Source of the DNA: Candidatus Cloacimonadota bacterium
GTDB taxonomy: Bacteria > Cloacimonadota > Cloacimonadia > Cloacimonadales > PWNZ01
Assembly (NCBI GenBank): GCA_003564135.1
Contig: PWNZ01000257.1
Span: forward strand, 1 to 50,264
Length of the DNA stretch: 50,264 bases
Direction: 5' to 3'
The translations under genes were made by a program, and so were the position numbers. The notes under the pieces are model-generated. The model saw only the letters and a program-made list of their open reading frames with translations. It was not told the origin of the DNA and searched no databases. Below, one piece after another: positions 1-13,862 of the stretch (position 1 is the first letter of the stretch; each line of letters begins with the position of its first letter).

Positions 1-260
1 ATACTCTATATGAGATCAAACCACCGCCTGCAACGGTTCCATAAATTCATTTATCCGTCAACCTTTATCTCTTTACCATTTACTGATGTCTGATAACTAT
101 TTTTATCAGTGTAATCTACCTACCCTGCCTGCCCTATGAAACCGAGGCATAATTTAATTCATTCCTTACCTAGTTCCCTCAGGCGAAGTCGGGAAATCTT
201 TTCCTTTGCTATTCCATCGGGGTGCAATTGCGAAGCACATTATTTCACCGGGGCAAAAGA
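1..260. other. Noncoding left edge, downstream of the first FGE-fold gene
   Basis: No convincing gene is seen. The stretch lies 3' of the minus-strand FGE-fold gene. It holds a 7-bp-arm inverted repeat (CTGATAA at 90-96, TTATCAG at 103-109) and two related GC-richer blocks near 213-227 and 243-256 that resemble the post-stop sequence of the larger FGE-fold gene. I searched it by eye for a DGR template repeat (a copy of the variable region rich in AAC/AAT) and found none. A reverse transcriptase gene, if the locus is a DGR, would have to lie left of position 1 or elsewhere. Confidence 0.6.
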
Positions 261-1109
261 TTAGGAGCTAACCCTGGAAATGCGAAAGCCAACATTACCG
301 CTGAGATCCGTCGCGCTGACGCTGAAACGACGGGAAACAGTGCAGCCAGACGTACCGTTGCCCCAGCCACCACCACGGACCACACGGCCGGTACCGCTTG
401 TAGGGCCTGTTGGATTGTTATGTGAACCTGTAGGATAATTAGCTCGTATATCCCATACCCAATTCCATACATTGCCGCTCATATCATATAAGCCTAACTC
501 ATTGGGACGCTTAGTGCCCACAGGATGAGTGCCATAATCAGGATGGGAAGAATTCCCAGGTAAACCATCGCCGGCATTATTCTCATACCAAGCATAGTTA
601 CCAATCTCAGTTTCTACATCTGTTCCTGCCCACCTGTCATTGAATGTACCTGCTTGCTGAGCAGGTGCGCCTCCCCGTGCTGAAAACTCCCACTCTGCAT
701 CTGTCGGTAAACGATAACCGTTGGCGGAAAAATCACAGTCTATCTCCTTGCCATCTAAACGATCATCATAACCATTTAATTCAGTATCGCCAGACACACT
801 GTAGCAAGGAGTTAAGCCTTCTTTCTTGCTAAGCCAATTACAGTATCGGATAGCATCATACCAGGAAACATTAATTGCAGGACGTGAATCTCTGCCCCAA
901 CCTTCATCTCCGGGTGTTTCTACACCTGCATCTTTACAATATTTTTCATATTCGGAAAATGTTACTGGATATTTACCTATCCAAAAACTATTCAGTGTTA
1001 ACTTATGAACCGGTTCTAAACCAGCATAGCCGTCACCACTTCCCATCATAAAGCTTCCGCCTTCAACTAAAATCATTTCTTTTTCGTTATCGCAGTTCTT
1101 ACCTTCCAT
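261..1109 (-). CDS. Single-domain FGE-sulfatase (SUMF1/C-type-lectin fold) protein, probable DGR target
   Basis: A 282-residue protein that is almost entirely one formylglycine-generating-enzyme-sulfatase domain. Visible landmarks are EGGSFMMGS near residue 15, NVSWYDAIRYCNWLS near 80, GYRLPTDAEWEFSARGG near 131, ELGLYDMSGNVWNWVWD near 205 and a C-terminal RGG...GFR block. It starts at an ATG eight bases after AAGGAG and has no signal peptide, so it is predicted cytosolic, unlike its exported neighbour. The fold is used both by true FGE enzymes and by ligand-binding DGR variable proteins. The last ~45 codons have few adenines and mostly NNC/NNT codons in the variable positions, and they match the end of the neighbouring gene at nucleotide level. 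I therefore read it as a diversified binding protein rather than an enzyme; the domain assignment is firm, the role is inference. Confidence 0.85.
   Translation of the reverse strand: MEGKNCDNEKEMILVEGGSFMMGSGDGYAGLEPVHKLTLNSFWIGKYPVTFSEYEKYCKDAGVETPGDEGWGRDSRPAINVSWYDAIRYCNWLSKKEGLTPCYSVSGDTELNGYDDRLDGKEIDCDFSANGYRLPTDAEWEFSARGGAPAQQAGTFNDRWAGTDVETEIGNYAWYENNAGDGLPGNSSHPDYGTHPVGTKRPNELGLYDMSGNVWNWVWDIRANYPTGSHNNPTGPTSGTGRVVRGGGWGNGTSGCTVSRRFSVSATDLSGNVGFRISRVSS
262..390 (-). other. Candidate DGR variable region (C-terminal end of the single-domain gene)
   Basis: Read on the minus strand, this region begins at CGTGTG (386 down to 381) and runs through GGCTTTCGC (290 down to 282) to the stop. 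Compared codon by codon with the end of the larger gene it keeps GCACTGTTTCC, CGT, GGCTTYCGC and TTTCCAGGGTTA. The variable codons between them change at bases 1 and 2 and mostly keep base 3: AAC/CAC, GGT/GCT, TCT/GCT, TGC/AGC, CGT/TAT. Adenines are scarce on the coding strand (about one base in ten by hand count). This is the expected imprint of adenine-specific mutagenic retrohoming into AAY codons; the conserved 3' block would be the homology-initiation segment. Confidence 0.65.
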
Positions 1110-1490
1110 AACTCTTACTCCTTGTTGTTTTGTTTCATTTTATTCACGGTTTTCTATAAGTGTTCCTCTTGAATTTTTAATTTACGTGCCACGTTTAGCA
1201 GGTGGATCAAATCCGTCAACAACTATGATTATTCAGCCTTTCTTTAAACAGAGCTTGTAAGCATCCTTTTCTTTTTAGCTATGTGTTATAGCAGGCGAAA
1301 AAATCCCCCTGCACTCCCTCTTTTATAGCGGCTCTTAACGGCTCCGAACTTTCCTTAGACGTTGATTGGGATCTTGACAATTTTTCCAAAAGGTTCACCC
1401 TGTGAAATCTTTTTTTCTATTTCAATGGGGTAAAAAAGTAAAAATCTTTACCCCGTGAAATCTATCTTTTCCATTATACTGGGTAAAAGG
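1110..1490. other. Intergenic stretch between the two FGE-fold genes
   Basis: About 380 bases with no supported gene. The part nearest 1109 carries the ribosome-binding site of the single-domain gene (AAGGAG on the minus strand). The part nearest 1490 carries a hairpin and repeated TTTCAC/GGGGTAAA-type motifs. No template repeat, reverse transcriptase or small accessory ORF of DGR type could be recognised here. Confidence 0.6.
1419..1461 (-). terminator. Hairpin just downstream of the three-domain FGE gene
   Basis: Inverted repeat with arms at 1419-1434 (ATTTCAATGGGGTAAA) and 1447-1461 (TTTACCCCGTGAAAT), a one-base bulge and a 12-base loop. It begins about 30 bases after the stop codon. It may simply be a terminator, although the following U-tract is weak. 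Its place directly after the variable region also matches the hairpin or cruciform that DGR homing needs downstream of the target. Confidence 0.55.
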
Positions 1491-1625
1491 TTAGGGGATA
1501 ACCCTGGAAACGCGGAAGCCGTAGTAGCGGTGGGGAAGGGACACAGGGTCGCTGAAGTAACGATAGGAAACAGTGCTATTAGCCGTAGCGTGGACGAAGC
1601 TACCGCCGCGCCGCACACGGCCGGT
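1491..1625 (-). other. Candidate DGR variable region (C-terminal end of the three-domain gene)
   Basis: On the minus strand the region starts at ACCGGCCGTGTG (1625 down to 1614) and ends at GGCTTCCGC and TTTCCAGGGTTA before the stop. The protein pattern SYR-x4-P-x8-GFR is the layout typical of CLec-fold DGR variable proteins. Nearly all variable codons end in C or T (GTC, CAC, GCT, AAT, AGC, TAT, TAC, TTC, GAC, TCC, CTT, CCC, CAC, CGC). The matching region of the neighbouring gene is one codon shorter. Confidence 0.65.
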
Positions 1626-4184
1626 AGCATGAGTACCATCTCCGCGGGGATTATCATTACCACTCGGAAATGTACCACCCCATCTATCCCAAACCCATTC
1701 AAATACATTACCGGACATATCATAGATACCGAGACCGTTAGGAGCTAATTCACCGACAGGATGGGTTGTTCCACCGGCATAACCTGAATACCAGGCAACT
1801 TCATCTGCATCGTTACTGCCGGCATATTGGTAAGGGCTTCCGAATGGCCATTCACTTTCCGGGTCATGAACTCCACCATTTGCCGCATGATGCCACTCTG
1901 CCTCGGTCGGTAAACGATAACCATCAGCTTCCCAATCACAAGATATATTAGTATGATTATCGTTATCTTCATTCCAACCGGGCCACTGCTCATACCAATC
2001 ATCAGGATTAGACCTACCATTATATGTATAGGCAGGTGTTAAACCTTCTCGAATACTCACACGATTACAATACTCAACAGCATCAAACCAAGAAAGCCGG
2101 TTCGCCGGATAATTATTATCAGTGGGTTCGGGTTGATCTCCGGGGTTGGGATGAGTGAATCCCCAATCAGCACCCATTATATCCCGAAACTCTGCCCGAG
2201 TTACCTGATACTTGCTGATATAAAACGGGTCTATATTGACATTACCATTAAATTGGTCTCCATCTACTAAGACCATCCTATCACGAGGTGGAGCATTCCT
2301 GACAAGGCGAAAGCCAATATAGTCTAACCGCCTGGTCGCTGCGTTATCATAGTTCCTATATGTAACAGCGCAATCGTTCTCATTATAGCGCCACCTACCA
2401 CCACGTATTATCATGAAAGTACCCCACGGTTGCCATTGTGAGGTCCACGTCCAATCCGCGACATTGCCGGACATATCATAGAGACCAAGCTCATTGGGAA
2501 GTTTGCCACCAACTGGATTGGTGCCATAGTTAGGATGGTCTTCGCCTACATCGAAAGCATTAGGCCTATACCAAGCATAATCCACTAATGATGCTAAATC
2601 ATTGGTGCCGGCCCACCTATCATTGAATGTTGAAGGATCAGCTTCCTGTGCCGGAACACCTCCTCTCGCCGCAAACTCCCACTCCATCTCGGTTGGTAAT
2701 CTATAACCATCTGTCTCCCAATCACAGGACACATTGCCCTGGTTCGCATTGACTGTGTTCCAACCTTCGGGCCAATCATCAGGATTAGTTCCATTCCCCA
2801 AATAACTATAAGCAGGGGTTAAGCCTTCTCTCATACTTAAACGGTTGCAGTACTCAACAGCATCAAACCAACTGACCATTTCAACAGGATTATTTGGATT
2901 ATCTTCAAAATGGGAAGGATTAATTCCCATTACAGACTCATACTCCGATTGAGTTACTTGATATTTACCAACATAAAACGATGGGATTTGATCATTGCCT
3001 AATTCCCCACCCTCTACAAAGACCATTCTCTCTTCGGGTGGAGGTGTAACATTCCTGGCAACACGGAAGCCTACACCATTGCTGCGAACCGTCGCGCGGT
3101 TTCTGTTACGATAGGAAACAGTGCAGAAATCCGCAGGGACGGCCCATAACCCGCCGCGAGCCACACGGTGGGTACCGCCATCAGCTCCGTGAGGATTGTC
3201 AACATCAGGTGGCCAGGTACCACCATCAATATCCCATACCCATTCCCAGACATTACCGGACATATCATAGATGCCGAGACCGTTGTGAGCTAATCCACCG
3301 ACAGGATGGGTTCGGCGTCCTTGACCGTCACCAATATCCGAATTACCAGTATACCAGGCAACTTCATCTATATCATTACTGCCTGCATATTGAAATGGGC
3401 TTCCGAAGGGCCATTCACTATCCGGATTATGAACCGCACCATTAGCTGCATGATGCCACTCAGTTTCGGTTGGAAGACGATAACCGTCAGCTTCCCAATC
3501 ACAGGATACATTGGTATGATTATCTCTGTCCTCATTCCAACCGGGCCACTGCTCATACCAATCATCAGGATTAGACCTACCATTATATGTATAGGCAGGT
3601 GTTAAACCTTTGTTTATACTCAAACGATTGCAGTACTCAATTATATCAAACCAGCTAACACGCTCTACCGGAAGATTCTCGTGGTTGGGAACACCATCTT
3701 CATCGGCAAAATGAGATGGATTGTTACCCATTACCTCAATCCACTCTTCCTGTGTTACCTGATACTTGCTGATATAAAACGGGTCGATAGTGATATCACC
3801 ATTAAAAAGGTCTCCATCTACTAAGACTAACCAATCGGGTATTCCAGGTTCTGCAAAAGCCGTAACATAGAAGAAGAAGGCGCTGCCTAATTCGTCAACA
3901 CTGTCTTCTGTAATGTATTCAGTTACTTCTTCTCCAACCGTTGCTAGCGGCTCTCCCCAATCCTCAGGATCTACTTCAGTTGAAGCGTAGATATTGTACG
4001 ATTCTGCACCTTCAACCGGTTCCCAAGTAAGACGGACATAGTCACCATCTTCTTCGACCATTATCTCAATATTAACCTGTGGTGCGGCAGGCTGTGCAAA
4101 GCACACTAAAACAAATAAACCCATAAGGGCTGCCAATGCAAGTCGCCATAATAACATTGCATCTCTCTTAATTGAACAGCTCAT
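1491..4184 (-). CDS. Exported protein with an Fn3-like domain and three tandem FGE-sulfatase domains, probable DGR target
   Basis: An 897-residue protein starting at an ATG after AGGAGGG. A signal peptide with a hydrophobic core lies at residues ~10-31 (ends near AQPAAPQ). It is followed by a fibronectin-III-like domain (~33-110, with VRLTWEPVEGAESYNIYAS) and three FGE-sulfatase domains at roughly 115-385, 390-640 and 640-897. Each FGE domain has the GLTPAY, GYRLPTE.EW, GLYDMSGNV and RGG...GFR landmarks. Domains 1 and 3 are very alike, including a 79-bp identical stretch; domain 2 is more diverged. The C-terminal end of domain 3, and the corresponding end of internal domain 1, carry the variable-codon pattern described for DGR targets. 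No lipobox or sorting domain is obvious at the C-terminus. Likely a surface or periplasmic ligand-binding protein (inference). Confidence 0.85.
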   Translation of the reverse strand: MSCSIKRDAMLLWRLALAALMGLFVLVCFAQPAAPQVNIEIMVEEDGDYVRLTWEPVEGAESYNIYASTEVDPEDWGEPLATVGEEVTEYITEDSVDELGSAFFFYVTAFAEPGIPDWLVLVDGDLFNGDITIDPFYISKYQVTQEEWIEVMGNNPSHFADEDGVPNHENLPVERVSWFDIIEYCNRLSINKGLTPAYTYNGRSNPDDWYEQWPGWNEDRDNHTNVSCDWEADGYRLPTETEWHHAANGAVHNPDSEWPFGSPFQYAGSNDIDEVAWYTGNSDIGDGQGRRTHPVGGLAHNGLGIYDMSGNVWEWVWDIDGGTWPPDVDNPHGADGGTHRVARGGLWAVPADFCTVSYRNRNRATVRSNGVGFRVARNVTPPPEERMVFVEGGELGNDQIPSFYVGKYQVTQSEYESVMGINPSHFEDNPNNPVEMVSWFDAVEYCNRLSMREGLTPAYSYLGNGTNPDDWPEGWNTVNANQGNVSCDWETDGYRLPTEMEWEFAARGGVPAQEADPSTFNDRWAGTNDLASLVDYAWYRPNAFDVGEDHPNYGTNPVGGKLPNELGLYDMSGNVADWTWTSQWQPWGTFMIIRGGRWRYNENDCAVTYRNYDNAATRRLDYIGFRLVRNAPPRDRMVLVDGDQFNGNVNIDPFYISKYQVTRAEFRDIMGADWGFTHPNPGDQPEPTDNNYPANRLSWFDAVEYCNRVSIREGLTPAYTYNGRSNPDDWYEQWPGWNEDNDNHTNISCDWEADGYRLPTEAEWHHAANGGVHDPESEWPFGSPYQYAGSNDADEVAWYSGYAGGTTHPVGELAPNGLGIYDMSGNVFEWVWDRWGGTFPSGNDNPRGDGTHATGRVRRGGSFVHATANSTVSYRYFSDPVSLPHRYYGFRVSRVIP
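1969..2047. repeat. 79-bp exact direct repeat, copy 1 (FGE domain 3)
   Basis: Identical to 3532-3610 by direct reading. It encodes the GLTPAYTYNGRSNPDDWYEQ portion of the FGE domain and some flanking residues. Identity over 79 bases, including synonymous positions, points to a recent domain duplication or gene conversion between domains 1 and 3. Confidence 0.9.
3065..3167 (-). other. Internal variable-region-like segment at the end of FGE domain 1
   Basis: On the minus strand it reads from CGTGTG (3167) to GGCTTCCGT (~3065). It keeps TGCACTGTTTCC, CGT, GCGACG and AGC in register with the single-domain gene's variable region and has the same length. Codons between these anchors differ mainly at bases 1 and 2 (TTC/AAC, GTC/AAC, AGC/CGC, GAT/GTT, CTC/CGC, GGT/AAT, AAT/GGT). 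It is internal, not C-terminal, so it is probably a former C-terminal target carried inward by domain duplication. Confidence 0.55.
3532..3610. repeat. 79-bp exact direct repeat, copy 2 (FGE domain 1)
   Basis: Second copy of the repeat at 1969-2047, in the same orientation, 1,563 bases away within one gene. Such repeats could recombine to delete or add whole FGE domains. Confidence 0.9.
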
Positions 4185-7121: not shown

Positions 7122-7616
7122 CCCAGATATTATAATGATTGTCTCAAACTCAGAAACTGATTCGATTCACATTATACAGGCTAATGACGGTCAATTGATG
7201 AGACACTTAAAATAGCTGTCTGTTTGATTTATGATATACTGTTCTGCTATGGCTAGATAAAAGGTCATCGATTAACCGTGGTATTCCATTTTTCAGAAAG
7301 CTGTTTCAAGAAACCGAGAGAAGGGACATCCCTTCTCTCTTCATTTATAGCCACCCTTTCTGTCCAGTTACTATAATGGTCGTAATCTCCACTGCAATTT
7401 TCCATCGTGGATTACAAAAGGTAATAATCCCTTAAGCAGTTGGGGAGATGTGTGAATATTTCCAAACCTGAAACAAATATTGACGGATATAGGTCACGCT
7501 GTTAATTCGTCATCGTAGACTGGCTTGCGGTGGTACATAAATTGCTTGACTTTATATGTTAGAAGGATTGTCAAAGTCAATAGCCTTAATGCTTGATAGA
7601 CGGAGGTGAACGGAAG
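7122..7616. other. Intergenic stretch before the first C25-like gene
   Basis: About 495 bases with no supported gene. It contains the stem-loop at 7316-7339 and, at its right end, the strong ribosome-binding site GGAGGTG (7602-7608) that fixes the start of the next gene at 7617. Confidence 0.55.
7316..7339 (+). terminator. Stem-loop, probable terminator
   Basis: Perfect 10-bp arms GAGAGAAGGG (7316-7325) and CCCTTCTCTC (7330-7339) with a four-base loop ACAT, followed by TTCATTT. It lies 195 bases after the surface-protein stop codon. The T-run is interrupted, so termination is likely but not certain. Confidence 0.6.
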
Positions 7617-10600
7617 ATGAGTTCACAAATTAATAGTGTTTTTTATAGAGTATCTAAACCGTTTTTATTGCTATTACTTTTATTGTTTTCAACTGGATTA
7701 GATGCTGTGAGGGATTGCTCTGCCCAATTTCGTCTTAACGGTGGGTTTAAAGTTGTTGGGGCGGGAGATAATTATACGATACTCGAGTTTATTTTACCTG
7801 ATCTCGAAGTCGTTGAAAGCGTTGTAGAAGGTCAAACTTATCTTAGATATCTGCATCCTGAGGCCGGTCTGATCATGCACATAGGTAAACCGGAAGTGCT
7901 GACTTTCTCGACTGCTGTTTCTCTTCCGAGTCGAGGGGTAGCGACTATTGCAATGGTTGAATCTTTGGAGGAAGAAACAATAGAAGATGTTGCTCTTTTT
8001 CCTTCTCAGGGCTTTAACCTAGAGGTTTGTGGAAAAAGCGGGTTTAAGAAAGATACTGATTTCTATGGGGAAAATGTTAGATATCCTGAGGAACAGGTTT
8101 TAATCGGGGAACCAGCCATCATGAGGGATGTTCGTATAGCAGCATTAACGGTTCATCCTTTTACTTATAATCCCCAAACGAGACAACTTACCATAACCAA
8201 TAGATTGAGAGTAAAGATTGTCTATGAAGATAATCAGGAAGGTGAGAACGAGATAATTAATCAGCGCTCCACTATTTCCCGTAGTTTTGAGCCTTTATAC
8301 CGGAACGTTATCATAAATTATGAGCAGTTTGCCAGAAGCAATGTTGATTATCAGATGAGAAGTATATTAATCGTTCATCATCATACCGAAGACAATCAGT
8401 ACCAACGGTTAATCAGCCGGTTTGCGAACTGGAAACGTGATAAAGGGTTTAAGGTGTCTAAATTATCAACAGCAGATAGAAATAATACTGGTCAGATAAA
8501 AAGTTATATTCAAGAAGCTTATAACAGTTGGGATAACCCTCCCGAATATATAATCTTAGTCGGAGGAAAGAGCGGGCCTATTTCGATGCCCGTCTGGACG
8601 ATCTATGATTCTGACGCCTATATCCCCGGACATTCCGATGGAGATCATGATTATACAACATTAGAAGGTAATGATATCTTGCCTGACGCTTTTGTGGGCA
8701 GGATATCTGTAGGAAGTGTTGAGCAGTTAGCGACGAGCATAAATAAGATTTTTAATTACGAGCGAACACCTTATTTCGAGCCTGGCAATAATTGGTATAA
8801 CCATAATCTTCTTACCGGAGACCCCGGGGTATCAGGGATCTCGACGATAATAACTAATAAATATATCAAAGAGTTGATGCTTATCCATAACGACGACAAA
8901 ACTTTTGCAGAAGTTTACACACAACCCTTTGCTACCCAGATGCAGAATGCTGTGAATCAAGGAGTTTCTTTTTTTAGCTTTCGAGGTCTGGAGAATTTGG
9001 CAGGTTGGGCTTCACCTTCTGATGAGGACTTATATAATGGGTATAAAATGCCGCACGCAACTCTGATAACTTGCCGAACTCTCGACTTTGACGGCGGTAA
9101 GCAGGTTGGCAGGTTATTCAGGATGGGTACACCTGTCACGCCTAAGGGGATAATTACCGGTATAGGTCTAAGCTGGGTAACAGAAACCGCTTTCAATAAC
9201 TGTTTCACAGGTGGTATATATAATGGTATTTTTACCGGTGGGCAAAGAACAATAGGCGAAGCGTTGATGAGTGGCAAGCTTAATCAGTGGATAACCTATA
9301 AAAACAGCCATGCCTGGCAGCTTCCACGTTATTTCCACCTTAACAACATGATTGGAGATCCATCGTTAGATATTTGGGTTGGAGAACCACAGCAGATTAA
9401 TGTATCCTATCCAGAGCAGTTGCCACCCGGATCAAATTCAATCTTGATAGAAGTTACCGATGCCGAACAGAGGCCTGTTCAAGACGCATGGGTTACTATC
9501 AGGACCGAAGATGATGAGCTGTTTTCTACCGGCTATACATGTGCGGAAGGATTAATTACCCATTTCTTTGATAGCGGAAGTAGGGATGAGGTCAATTTGA
9601 CTGTTACCAAACCGGAACATATTCCTCATATAGGTCAGTTTGAAATAGCCGGAGACCCTATCGTTGCCCACAGAAGAACTTTTCCTATCGGTTATCCTGA
9701 TGCGGGAACCCAGTTTGAATTTGATCTTTCAGTTGCTAATCACAGTAATAATGATTACCCTAATGCTGTAGGCAGCATAACTATCGACAGTGAATTTATA
9801 GGAACTATTGACGATGAATCAGGTTTTGGTAATATTGACGCCGGCAGGCAAGCTAATAGTGAAGAACGTTATTCTGTCGATATTGCACCGGAAACACCAG
9901 ATGGCTACAAAGCATTATTTCTACTGACAGTTACTTCTGAACAGCAAGAAATAGGAGTAAGCAGGTTTTCTATAGATATACATTCAGGCAAACTGGTACC
10001 TGTTGATGTCAGCATTGAAAATGATGATGAAGTTTTGCAGCCGGGACAAGAGGCCGTGTTGAGATTTTCAGTAAGAAACACCGGCGAACTTTCGTTGCAT
10101 CATATAGTGGCCGAAATATCGGGCGGTGGTCATGGTCTGACATTTGCTAATGCTACCAATCATTATGGCACTATAGCTCCCAATCAGCAATCAAGCGGTT
10201 CACCAGACAACCCTTTCCTGCTGAGGGCCGAAGATTTTGTTATTCCGGGAGCTAGTTTCAATCTCCAAATTGAATTTACAAACCCTGAAGGATTTGAGCA
10301 GACATTGACGTTTGATTTAACTGTCGGAACACCTGAGATAACTGATCCATTTGGTCCTGATAACCACGGTTATTGGTGTTATGATGTCGGAGATTTAGAA
10401 TATGAGCTCGCTCCTGCTTATGATTGGATCGAAATAGCACCTCAATATGGTGGAGAGGGTGTTAATACGGGGTTGAATTCTGATTTCGACAACATGCAGA
10501 CTAACATAGTTATGGAACTCCCCTTTAGATTCAGGTTTTATGGTGTTGAATATGATGTTATTACTATCTGTGCCAATGGCTGGATCAGCTTTGGAGAAAC

Positions 10601-13600
10601 AGAGCAAACAACACAAAGGAATTGGAAGCTTCCCGGCCCTTTAGGCCCCAGTCCGATTGTAGCAGCATTTTGGGATAATCTCTCTCTTTCCGAGGGAGGT
10701 GTATATACCAAATATGATGAGATTAACAGTAAATTTATTATCCAGTGGCAGAATGCCAGAAATGTAATCCGGAATGCTGAAGAAACTTTTCAGATAATTC
10801 TCTACGATCCTGTATTCCATCATACAGCTACAGGAGATGGTCCCATAAAATTACAATATAAAGTCTTTAACAACCTCAACAATGGTGCTAATACACCTGT
10901 AGGTATAGGTAACTGGGGAAATTATGCAACTGTTGGGATTGCTGATCACACAGGAACAGACGGCCTGGAATATACTTTTAACAACACATATCCTGTTGCA
11001 GCTAAACCCATTGAGGATGAGGCGGCACTTTATTTTACCACCGGTTCAGTTACTTATGTGCCCTACGTAGTTTTAGAATCGTTTTCTTATCAGGGTGAAA
11101 ACTTTGATCTCGCTATGTTTGGAGACAGCGGAGATATTGGCATAACCCTTATGAATGTGGGAGGACAGGATGCAAACCATGTAAGTGCATCGCTATCTTC
11201 GGATGATCCTTATGTTGATATTATTCGTGACAAAGCTGAGCTCGGTGATATTCCCATAGGATCAAACGCATCTTTGCAAGGAGCTTTCACTTTAAGATTT
11301 GCGACCGATATACCGAATAAGCACGAAGTTTTTTTTCGGCTGTCTGTAAGTGAAGGTGATCAATCGGTGAGAGTGTTTCGGTTCATGCTGGAAGTTCATG
11401 CTCCCGACATATCATTATCATCATTTACTCCGGTGATTACACCTGTCGTCGAAGCTGCTGTGCCTTTGGATATGACGCTTGTTAATAAAGGACTTGGTGG
11501 TTCTTGTGATGTCAGGGGGAGGCTGGCTACTGATGATATATACGTTACTGTCTTAGACGACTATTCCATGTTCGGTTCCATCGCTTATGGAGATAGTGTT
11601 ACCGTCAATAACGCTTATACCATCGAAATAAGCAATGATGTTCCTGACGGACACAGAGCAGAATATAGACTCGCTTTAACTTCAGAAGGAGGTCAGCATT
11701 GGGAGCAGCTATTTCACATAGAACTATATGCGCCGTATTTGACATCAACTAATCCCATCATCTGCGACAGCGCACCGGGAGGTAATAATAATGGGGTTTT
11801 AGACCCCGGAGAAACTGTTACGATACATTTACCGGTTGTAAATAGAGGGAGAGCAGATGCGCGAAAAGTTTCTGTTACCATCGATACCAGTTGCGATATG
11901 GTTACAATAAACAGTATAACTCCCGACACTTTATACATTGTTCCACACGGCGAGATTCTTTACACAGCAGTTGACGTTACCATTTGCGAAGAAATCGGCG
12001 AAGAAGTTCCGATAAACTTTAATTACAGGTATGAGACCGGAGAATATGAGTTTACCGGAGCATTTGTAATTGGCACTTCCGGTTGTCTACCTGCTCATAT
12101 CGGCGAAGGTGCCGCGCAGACTTCAAGACAAACTGCCAGTCCTATAAATATATATTACCAAAGTTTGCGCAGCCAGGCAGTATACACGGTTACAGAGCTT
12201 AACGATGCCGGCATCATGACAAGTGGCTATGTAAACGGTATTGGCTATTATGTTACGGGAGTTCCTGAATATCCGTTACCCGACTTCACGATCAAGGTTA
12301 CACACAGTTCTGCAAACGATGCATCATCCCATATAGACGGTGATTTGAGTATAGCTTATAACGCTGAATCTTTTCAGCCTGAAGGAACAGGGTGGGCTAT
12401 GATTGAGTTCGACAGTCCTTTTTATTGGAATGGAGAGGATAACATATTGATTGATACAGCTTTTTCACCGATAGCCGGATGGAGTAATTCAGGGCAGATA
12501 AGAGTTTATCATCAGGAAAACGGATTTCGCTACGCGAGAGAGGATAATATAGACCAAAGAAACGTAAAGACAAATTCGATTTCTACTGATAAACCACAGC
12601 TAATGGTGAATTTTGGTGTGGATAGGAAAGCTATTTCGCAAAGACCTCGAAACCTTAATGCGGACTATAACAGATATCAGGTTAATCTTACTTGGTCGCC
12701 ACCTGACAATGGTAATCGACAGAAGGAATTGGCAAATTATAGAGCAACACGGACTGACAATAAAGACAGAAGGACAAATCTAACTTATAATATCTATTGT
12801 AACGGTGTGAAGATAAATGATGAGCCGGTAACAGACCTTGAGTTTGTCGACAGTAGTTTTAACCCTCGCCGGACTAATTTTTACACTGTTACAACGCTAG
12901 CTGACATGTACGAGTCGGCACCCTCGAATATCGTTAAGGTTGAGTTTGACGTAGTAGCAAAACCTGTTATTTCACCCAAGTCTTTGATAAACTATGATAG
13001 CGTGATTATTGAAATTGATTCCGAAACAGATGCAGCCGAAATTTATTACACGTTAGACGGCTCTCGGCCAACCCAGTGGGGTGACCGCTATGAAGAACCG
13101 TTCGAACTTTTTGAAACTGCGAAGGTTACCGCTATAGCTTTCAAGGACGATTGGTTGAGCAGTGATGCAGCCGAAAGAGATTATCTGTTGCTCTATCCAC
13201 CGCAAAACGTCAGAACAAGCGGCTCTTTGTCGACTGCCCACCTTTATTGGGATGAGCCGGACAAGTCTACTGATAGAGGGATTTATAGTACTGGTTTACG
13301 ATCGCAACACCAGCCAATAAGAGGGGCTGAAGAGCTAGACAGGAGTTCTGCGCAGGTAAATATGTTAGGATATTTTGTATATCTCTGCTTAGGTGAAGAC
13401 AATCATATCTTGCTGACACCCAAGCCTCTAACAGAAACTAAGTATAAAGACAAAAATTTGGAGGAAGGTGTTTACCGTTATTTTATACGAGCCATCTACG
13501 ATAGAGGGTTTTCCTTGCCGACAGACACCGTGCAGGTACAGGTTGGATCTACTTCTGTCGAAGACCAAATAGAGGTAGCACCATATGTGACCGAACTCGG

Positions 13601-13862
13601 TCGTGCCTTCCCAAATCCTTTTAACCCGGAGACAAATATCGAGTTTACCTTATCTAAGGAACAGCAGGTAACTCTTGATCTATATAATATAAGAGGTCAG
13701 TTTATCAAAAGCTTAATCAATGATGTTTTGGAAGTGGGTAGGTATCAGGTAATATGGAACGGAACAAACATTCACGGTAATAGGGTCGGAAGCGGTGTCT
13801 ATCTGTATCGTATGCAGGCAGGTTCTTATTCTGAGACTAAGAAAGTGATAATGATTAAGTAG
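7617..13862 (+). CDS. Giant gingipain-like (peptidase family C25) secreted protein with type IX sorting domain
   Basis: A 2,081-residue protein. I prefer the ATG at 7617 (GGAGGTG eight bases upstream) to the in-frame TTG at 7593. The signal peptide core LLLLLLLF lies near residues 17-24, ending before ~36. The C25-like core spans about 245-590 (RSILIVHHHTED near 248, GDPSLDIWVG near 585). A beta-sandwich region lies at ~910-1140 (ANGWISFG, PIVAAFWDN), an Fn3 domain near 1680-1780, a chitobiase-C-like domain (EIYYTLDGSRPT) near 1785-1860, and a C-terminal type A sorting domain from FPNPFNPETNIEF near 2000. Cys486 (ITCRT) sits where the gingipain nucleophile is expected, but Arg456 (FRGLE) occupies the place of the catalytic His of the GHG motif. 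Proteolytic activity is therefore doubtful. It is a paralog of the gene at 17059. Confidence 0.85.
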   Translation: MSSQINSVFYRVSKPFLLLLLLLFSTGLDAVRDCSAQFRLNGGFKVVGAGDNYTILEFILPDLEVVESVVEGQTYLRYLHPEAGLIMHIGKPEVLTFSTAVSLPSRGVATIAMVESLEEETIEDVALFPSQGFNLEVCGKSGFKKDTDFYGENVRYPEEQVLIGEPAIMRDVRIAALTVHPFTYNPQTRQLTITNRLRVKIVYEDNQEGENEIINQRSTISRSFEPLYRNVIINYEQFARSNVDYQMRSILIVHHHTEDNQYQRLISRFANWKRDKGFKVSKLSTADRNNTGQIKSYIQEAYNSWDNPPEYIILVGGKSGPISMPVWTIYDSDAYIPGHSDGDHDYTTLEGNDILPDAFVGRISVGSVEQLATSINKIFNYERTPYFEPGNNWYNHNLLTGDPGVSGISTIITNKYIKELMLIHNDDKTFAEVYTQPFATQMQNAVNQGVSFFSFRGLENLAGWASPSDEDLYNGYKMPHATLITCRTLDFDGGKQVGRLFRMGTPVTPKGIITGIGLSWVTETAFNNCFTGGIYNGIFTGGQRTIGEALMSGKLNQWITYKNSHAWQLPRYFHLNNMIGDPSLDIWVGEPQQINVSYPEQLPPGSNSILIEVTDAEQRPVQDAWVTIRTEDDELFSTGYTCAEGLITHFFDSGSRDEVNLTVTKPEHIPHIGQFEIAGDPIVAHRRTFPIGYPDAGTQFEFDLSVANHSNNDYPNAVGSITIDSEFIGTIDDESGFGNIDAGRQANSEERYSVDIAPETPDGYKALFLLTVTSEQQEIGVSRFSIDIHSGKLVPVDVSIENDDEVLQPGQEAVLRFSVRNTGELSLHHIVAEISGGGHGLTFANATNHYGTIAPNQQSSGSPDNPFLLRAEDFVIPGASFNLQIEFTNPEGFEQTLTFDLTVGTPEITDPFGPDNHGYWCYDVGDLEYELAPAYDWIEIAPQYGGEGVNTGLNSDFDNMQTNIVMELPFRFRFYGVEYDVITICANGWISFGETEQTTQRNWKLPGPLGPSPIVAAFWDNLSLSEGGVYTKYDEINSKFIIQWQNARNVIRNAEETFQIILYDPVFHHTATGDGPIKLQYKVFNNLNNGANTPVGIGNWGNYATVGIADHTGTDGLEYTFNNTYPVAAKPIEDEAALYFTTGSVTYVPYVVLESFSYQGENFDLAMFGDSGDIGITLMNVGGQDANHVSASLSSDDPYVDIIRDKAELGDIPIGSNASLQGAFTLRFATDIPNKHEVFFRLSVSEGDQSVRVFRFMLEVHAPDISLSSFTPVITPVVEAAVPLDMTLVNKGLGGSCDVRGRLATDDIYVTVLDDYSMFGSIAYGDSVTVNNAYTIEISNDVPDGHRAEYRLALTSEGGQHWEQLFHIELYAPYLTSTNPIICDSAPGGNNNGVLDPGETVTIHLPVVNRGRADARKVSVTIDTSCDMVTINSITPDTLYIVPHGEILYTAVDVTICEEIGEEVPINFNYRYETGEYEFTGAFVIGTSGCLPAHIGEGAAQTSRQTASPINIYYQSLRSQAVYTVTELNDAGIMTSGYVNGIGYYVTGVPEYPLPDFTIKVTHSSANDASSHIDGDLSIAYNAESFQPEGTGWAMIEFDSPFYWNGEDNILIDTAFSPIAGWSNSGQIRVYHQENGFRYAREDNIDQRNVKTNSISTDKPQLMVNFGVDRKAISQRPRNLNADYNRYQVNLTWSPPDNGNRQKELANYRATRTDNKDRRTNLTYNIYCNGVKINDEPVTDLEFVDSSFNPRRTNFYTVTTLADMYESAPSNIVKVEFDVVAKPVISPKSLINYDSVIIEIDSETDAAEIYYTLDGSRPTQWGDRYEEPFELFETAKVTAIAFKDDWLSSDAAERDYLLLYPPQNVRTSGSLSTAHLYWDEPDKSTDRGIYSTGLRSQHQPIRGAEELDRSSAQVNMLGYFVYLCLGEDNHILLTPKPLTETKYKDKNLEEGVYRYFIRAIYDRGFSLPTDTVQVQVGSTSVEDQIEVAPYVTELGRAFPNPFNPETNIEFTLSKEQQVTLDLYNIRGQFIKSLINDVLEVGRYQVIWNGTNIHGNRVGSGVYLYRMQAGSYSETKKVIMIK

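Follow-up and report, generated by a model that had tools for sequence, protein, structure and literature searches.

The DNA analysed here, called the window, is a stretch of 50,264 nucleotides that makes up contig C221 of a draft genome (G000; 2.87 Mb, 282 contigs, 91.6% complete). Two genes close to its first base, here named a and b, both encode proteins of the FGE/C-type-lectin fold, and the C-terminal end of each carries a variable region (VR). The features listed next all lie on the minus strand; C numbers denote other contigs of the same draft genome, and G001 is a relative from the same family.

261..1109, minus strand: gene a, 282 aa, one FGE/C-type-lectin-fold domain with a C-terminal VR (PF03781, E 4.4e-49)
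1491..4184, minus strand: gene b, 897 aa, signal-peptide-like N-terminus and three FGE domains (PF03781 in three stretches)
282..377, minus strand: VR of gene a, with an RGG...GFR core; its likeness to related templates reaches 5' to about 400
1512..1610, minus strand: VR of gene b, at the C-terminus of domain 3, recognised by its match to related template repeats (TRs)
3063..3158, minus strand: VR-like segment inside gene b, closing domain 1, recognised by third-base retention against VR a
259..290, minus strand: constant 3' end of VR a with the stop and the first bases beyond, GGCTTTCGCATTTCCAGGGTTAGCTCCTAATC, common to b, C136, C111, C139 and three G001 copies
1489..1520, minus strand: constant 3' end of VR b with the stop, GGCTTCCGCGTTTCCAGGGTTATCCCCTAACC, from sequence comparison of the copies
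1291..1314, minus strand: degraded hairpin copy after gene b, GTGCAGGGGGATTTTTTCGCCTGC, 176 nt past the stop instead of 77-79
218..253, minus strand: dispersed intergenic repeat after gene a, GGTGAAATAATGTGCTTCGCAATTKCACC, with copies on C27 (twice), C238, C180 and C1; not DGR-specific

Among solved structures, gene a is closest to T. denticola variable protein 1 (PDB 2y3c, E 3.8e-40, 141 bits); CotH (83 bits) and FGE (72 bits) follow further down, so that 2y3c leads FGE by about 69 bits. The same structure is the top match of gene b domain 3 (103 bits). In both genes, as expected of a DGR target, a C-type-lectin/FGE-fold coding sequence ends in a VR, and gene b additionally has an internal copy. 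A signal peptide is not evident in gene a, and a search with its protein against the collection of genome contigs returned no relatives. An AlphaFold model of gene a reached a mean pLDDT of 61, with most of the VR below 50, and was left out of the analysis. Compared by eye with human FGE, gene a presumably keeps only one of the two active-site cysteine positions. Elsewhere in the window, positions 7593-13862 encode a gingipain-like peptidase (C25) of 2089 aa with a Por secretion tail and an Fn3-associated domain.

A preliminary description of this DNA aligned the two gene ends as fixed blocks separated by codons that differ at their first two bases and share the third, and read this as the signature of DGR adenine mutagenesis. 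We found both the blocks and the codon pairs, given one additional codon in b. For a and b alone, the third base is kept in 13 of the 20 codons that differ at positions 1-2 (shuffle p = 0.028), as against 35/118 further upstream in both genes (Fisher p = 0.004), where the third position is the most variable (0.60). This modest signal became decisive once other copies were added. When the window's own segments (a and domains 1 and 3 of b) are taken together, 40/57 codons keep the third base, a value reached in 0/5000 shuffles; across eight VRs the count is 384/523 (73%), with a shuffle mean of 40%, a maximum of 50% and 0/5000 as high, in tests that ignore relatedness between copies. The internal segment behaves in the same way, as 14 of its 15 codons differing from VR a at positions 1-2 retain the third base. 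Five ordinary FGE paralogs, a control set that leaves out the VR-like b domain 1, showed no excess in the same region: only 58/226 (26%) keep the third base, and the third position is the most variable (0.66).

The variable positions were then compared with TRs of DGRs in related genomes, which read ...GGCGGTAGCTGGAACAACAATGCCAACAACTGCACTGTTTCCAACCGG... and share the scaffold of the window segments, being AAC-rich and aligning with them codon by codon. Sites were scored as mutable when A is present in at least four of five such TRs, the templates thus being those of relatives and not the organism's own. Between pairs of VRs from the window's family, 71% of template-A sites differ at position 1 and 64% at position 2; where none of the TRs has A, the differences amount to 12%, 18% and 29% at positions 1, 2 and 3. 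Against the best related TR (L073), 24 of the 39 mismatches of VR a fall at TR adenines (69% of A changed versus 23% of non-A, Fisher 1.5e-5), as do 25 of the 40 mismatches of VR b (Fisher 4.7e-6). Taken singly, each VR is changed disproportionately often where the TR has adenine (Fisher 4.7e-6 to 6e-4), and b domain 1 differs from VR a at 22/32 A sites and 9/58 non-A sites. The signature proposed earlier is thus upheld, with mismatches concentrated at related-TR adenines and third bases kept. It is an imperfect one, since a and b also differ at 14/58 non-A sites, the adenines being taken from related templates. Adenine mutagenesis does not account for TGC to AGC or TGG to TTC, both in b, nor for GCG to ACG, which a and b share.

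The preliminary description had recognised two VRs; both gene ends stand as such, while the window has a third and the remainder of the genome at least five more. Four of the further copies (C136, C243, C139 and C111) were recovered by DNA searches with the ends of either gene, and the fifth, at C182:1-182 (L254), by a hairpin search, this contig starting inside its VR. In G001, the VR block occurs in two FGE genes and in one orphan fragment (G001:C61:8088-8198, L099), which keeps the constant 3' end and has no target gene body. Contig C149 of G000 (L037) terminates within an FGE gene, upstream of the expected VR position. The internal segment of gene b has no constant 3' block and is probably a diversified domain frozen by fusion.

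Genuine DGRs are present in the order. Their RTs carry the motifs GNLTSQ and YMDD, the TR overlaps the RT end or lies just after it, an FGE-type target is found upstream, and bAvd-like and usually HRDC genes sit between target and RT. A DGR RT profile gave strong matches (>340 bits) in about 23 of the 107 genomes of the order; the best match of this profile in a named genome collection is a Cloacimonadota record (70% identity), which makes Cloacimonadota the probable affiliation of the order. In G019 the template (L074:10295-10418) is contained within a long RT open reading frame (433 aa), so that this TR may also be translated.

The window's own genome yielded a different picture. The DGR RT profile detected no DGR-type RT in G001 or in G000, the latter assembly being 91.6% complete. 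The sole RT of G000, on C129, belongs to the group II intron type (GGVVSPL/YADD) and was rejected as a DGR RT. DNA searches with the VRs gave target-type copies only, and a template pattern had 0 matches in G000 with one mismatch allowed. An alignment-based Avd profile, which was positive in all five controls, found nothing in G000 or G001; Pfam 23S_rRNA_IVP matched nowhere and was uninformative. An HRDC match on C122 adjoins DNA-methyltransferase-like genes and was rejected as a DGR accessory. Template-like and hairpin patterns searched for in viral contigs gave no match. With RT, TR and Avd absent from the assembled genome, a complete system does not qualify there, while the target genes do, as orphaned targets. 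The preliminary description had pointed to a DGR diversifying the two proteins and had looked to an RT with an AAY-rich template elsewhere in the genome, whose absence would refute it. Neither was found in the roughly 92%-complete assembly, which breaks beside or inside several VRs, and this proposal is not borne out there, the more so as VRs carry non-A substitutions and some copies are broken. Hairpin-tagged VR genes also occur in four near-complete genomes in which no DGR-type RT was found, G006, G017, G031 and G050 (L234, L236, L242, L244 and L249), and orphan targets may be common in the order.

We also followed the sequence beyond the stop codons, where homology between the two gene ends had been reported to continue. 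It does so in a, b and the other copies, over some 20-25 nt (CCTAACCTTTTGCCC); beyond this, gene a enters the dispersed repeat at 218-253. Copies of this repeat on C27, C238, C180 and C1 have no VR in the flanks inspected, indicating that the post-stop part beyond about 25 nt is not evidence for a DGR, and it was rejected as a site where mutagenic homing is initiated. The DNA fold of the repeat is not significant (z -0.26). The stretch at 259-290, which joins the constant end of VR a to the stop and the first bases beyond, would be a zone resembling the initiation of mutagenic homing.

A second feature downstream of VRs is a palindrome, GTGCAGGGGGA-loop-TCCCCCTGC. In the order, 15 of 16 palindromic matches lie downstream of a VR, a proportion that holds for one sequence type only, as the search pattern fixed most stem bases; in 11 of the 15 the hairpin stands 77-79 nt after the stop. 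Folding energies of intact copies range from -14.5 to -16.1 kcal/mol, against -5.6 kcal/mol for the copy after gene b. In the same genome, the hairpin of C182 is intact (-16.1 kcal/mol) and follows the stop by 100 nt, and C136 has a hairpin at 141 nt; gene a has none within the 260 bp preceding the contig end. The damaged and displaced hairpin fits a loss of constraint on b, if the element has the role in homing suggested by analogy with BPP-1.

Cumulatively, these sequence comparisons make it highly probable (about 0.86) that the ends of a, b and b domain 1 are VRs written by an FGE-target DGR of the HRDC-Avd-RT type, orphaned in this assembly. In such a system, a template RNA would be reverse-transcribed with random bases incorporated opposite adenines, and the resulting cDNA would overwrite the 3' end of a gene recognised as a target by its constant 3' block and downstream hairpin. 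AAC/AAT codons would thereby be altered at positions 1-2, leaving the remaining ligand-binding scaffold intact. The biochemical steps are borrowed from known DGRs, and, as RT, TR and Avd were all missing from this assembly, the mechanism is inferred from related genomes belonging to other families of the order. Two states of the core are consistent with this reading. For b, b domain 1, C136, C139 and C243 we prefer loss of the core in the lineage with copies that are decaying; for a and C182, a core in the unassembled part of the genome that still serves its targets in trans is possible.

The second state, an active DGR with a core locus missing from the draft, diversifying in trans a, C182 and perhaps further targets, draws on the incompleteness of the assembly (91.6%, 282 contigs). 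Of the six VR contigs in G000, four (C221, C136, C182 and C243) break off no more than about 600 bp from the VR. C182 begins inside its VR and retains an intact hairpin; C221 ends 260 bp past gene a and C136 380 bp past its VR, approximately where relatives place HRDC-Avd-RT, and the RT contigs of relatives are often short. Hypervariable or repeated sequence could cause contigs to end near VRs, so that core genes may lie in the unassembled part. Against this activity stands the amount of change away from adenines. Between a TR of G024 (L078) and its adjacent VR there are 13 A mismatches and 0 non-A mismatches, and of 58 non-A sites, 4-5 differ among three dispersed VRs of G052, whereas 10-17 (17-29%) do so among the VRs of the window's genome. 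G001, the sole family relative, is also without a core, and the hairpin of b is degraded and displaced. Two copies (C136 and C139) are broken in frame and two others (C243 and G001 C61) are truncated fragments; together with the non-A substitutions they indicate that at least some VRs are relics. On balance, we regard continuing diversification in trans as possible but rather unlikely.

A different origin would be acquisition of the VR genes from DGR-bearing relatives, by horizontal transfer or duplication, with no diversification ever taking place in this lineage. Orphan C-terminal fragments such as C243 and G001 C61 could have arisen in this way, and so could the hairpin-tagged genes of the four genomes in which no DGR RT was found. 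The constant 3' end TTTCCAGGGTTATCCCCTAACC argues otherwise: it is common to the genome's own copies and G001, unlike the ends in other sampled families, and suggests a family-specific ancestor. Such an origin is improbable. Ordinary divergence of FGE paralogs through positive selection or gene conversion, with no DGR involved, is hardly credible even with 18 FGE domain matches in the genome and RGG...GFR motifs in FGE C-termini that have no DGR, as the paralogs and the upstream parts of a and b vary most at the third position, the opposite pattern, and the variable sites coincide with template adenines of real DGRs.

Returning to the orphaned-target reading, we tentatively propose, at somewhat less than even odds, that DGR targets of the order make up a scattered repertoire, addressed by the hairpin, which outlives its core or is uncoupled from it. 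The palindrome GTGCAGGGGGA-TTTT-TCCCCCTGC, at a fixed 77-79 nt after the stop, would label distant targets for trans homing, and a multi-domain exported protein would have captured one diversified domain and frozen it. Third-base conservation and the spaced hairpin allow targets with a VR to be identified in the absence of their DGR, which helps to find remote targets; contig-based surveys miss these, a limit stated in PMC8144416. In a group that is little cultured, the locus also provides a testable example of a DGR being lost while frozen binding variants survive.

Genes a and b are DGR target genes, orphaned in this assembly, and the kind of system is already known. Its closest likeness is the T. 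denticola DGR and its TvpA (2y3c; PMC4891356), in which a C-type-lectin/FGE-fold target has a C-terminal VR, targets can be remote, and the DGR locus includes an HRDC accessory, as in the order-level relatives. Isolates of T. denticola have kept VR-bearing targets after RT and TR were lost (PMC4891356), a state similar to that of G000. Unlike the T. denticola DGR itself, G000 is without RT or TR, and one of its targets has three domains and a VR-like segment in its interior. The FGE-target DGRs of the order (G058, G054, G024, G010 and others) share the VR scaffold at nucleotide level and the downstream hairpin; they differ in having HRDC-bAvd-RT-TR beside the VR, which is absent from the window genome as assembled. 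In Bordetella phage BPP-1, the VR is likewise followed by a G+C-rich hairpin. Hairpins of that type stand 4-34 bp after the VR and have a 4-nt GRNA loop (PMC3240598), whereas that of the order lies 77-79 nt past the stop in most relatives and has an A/T loop.
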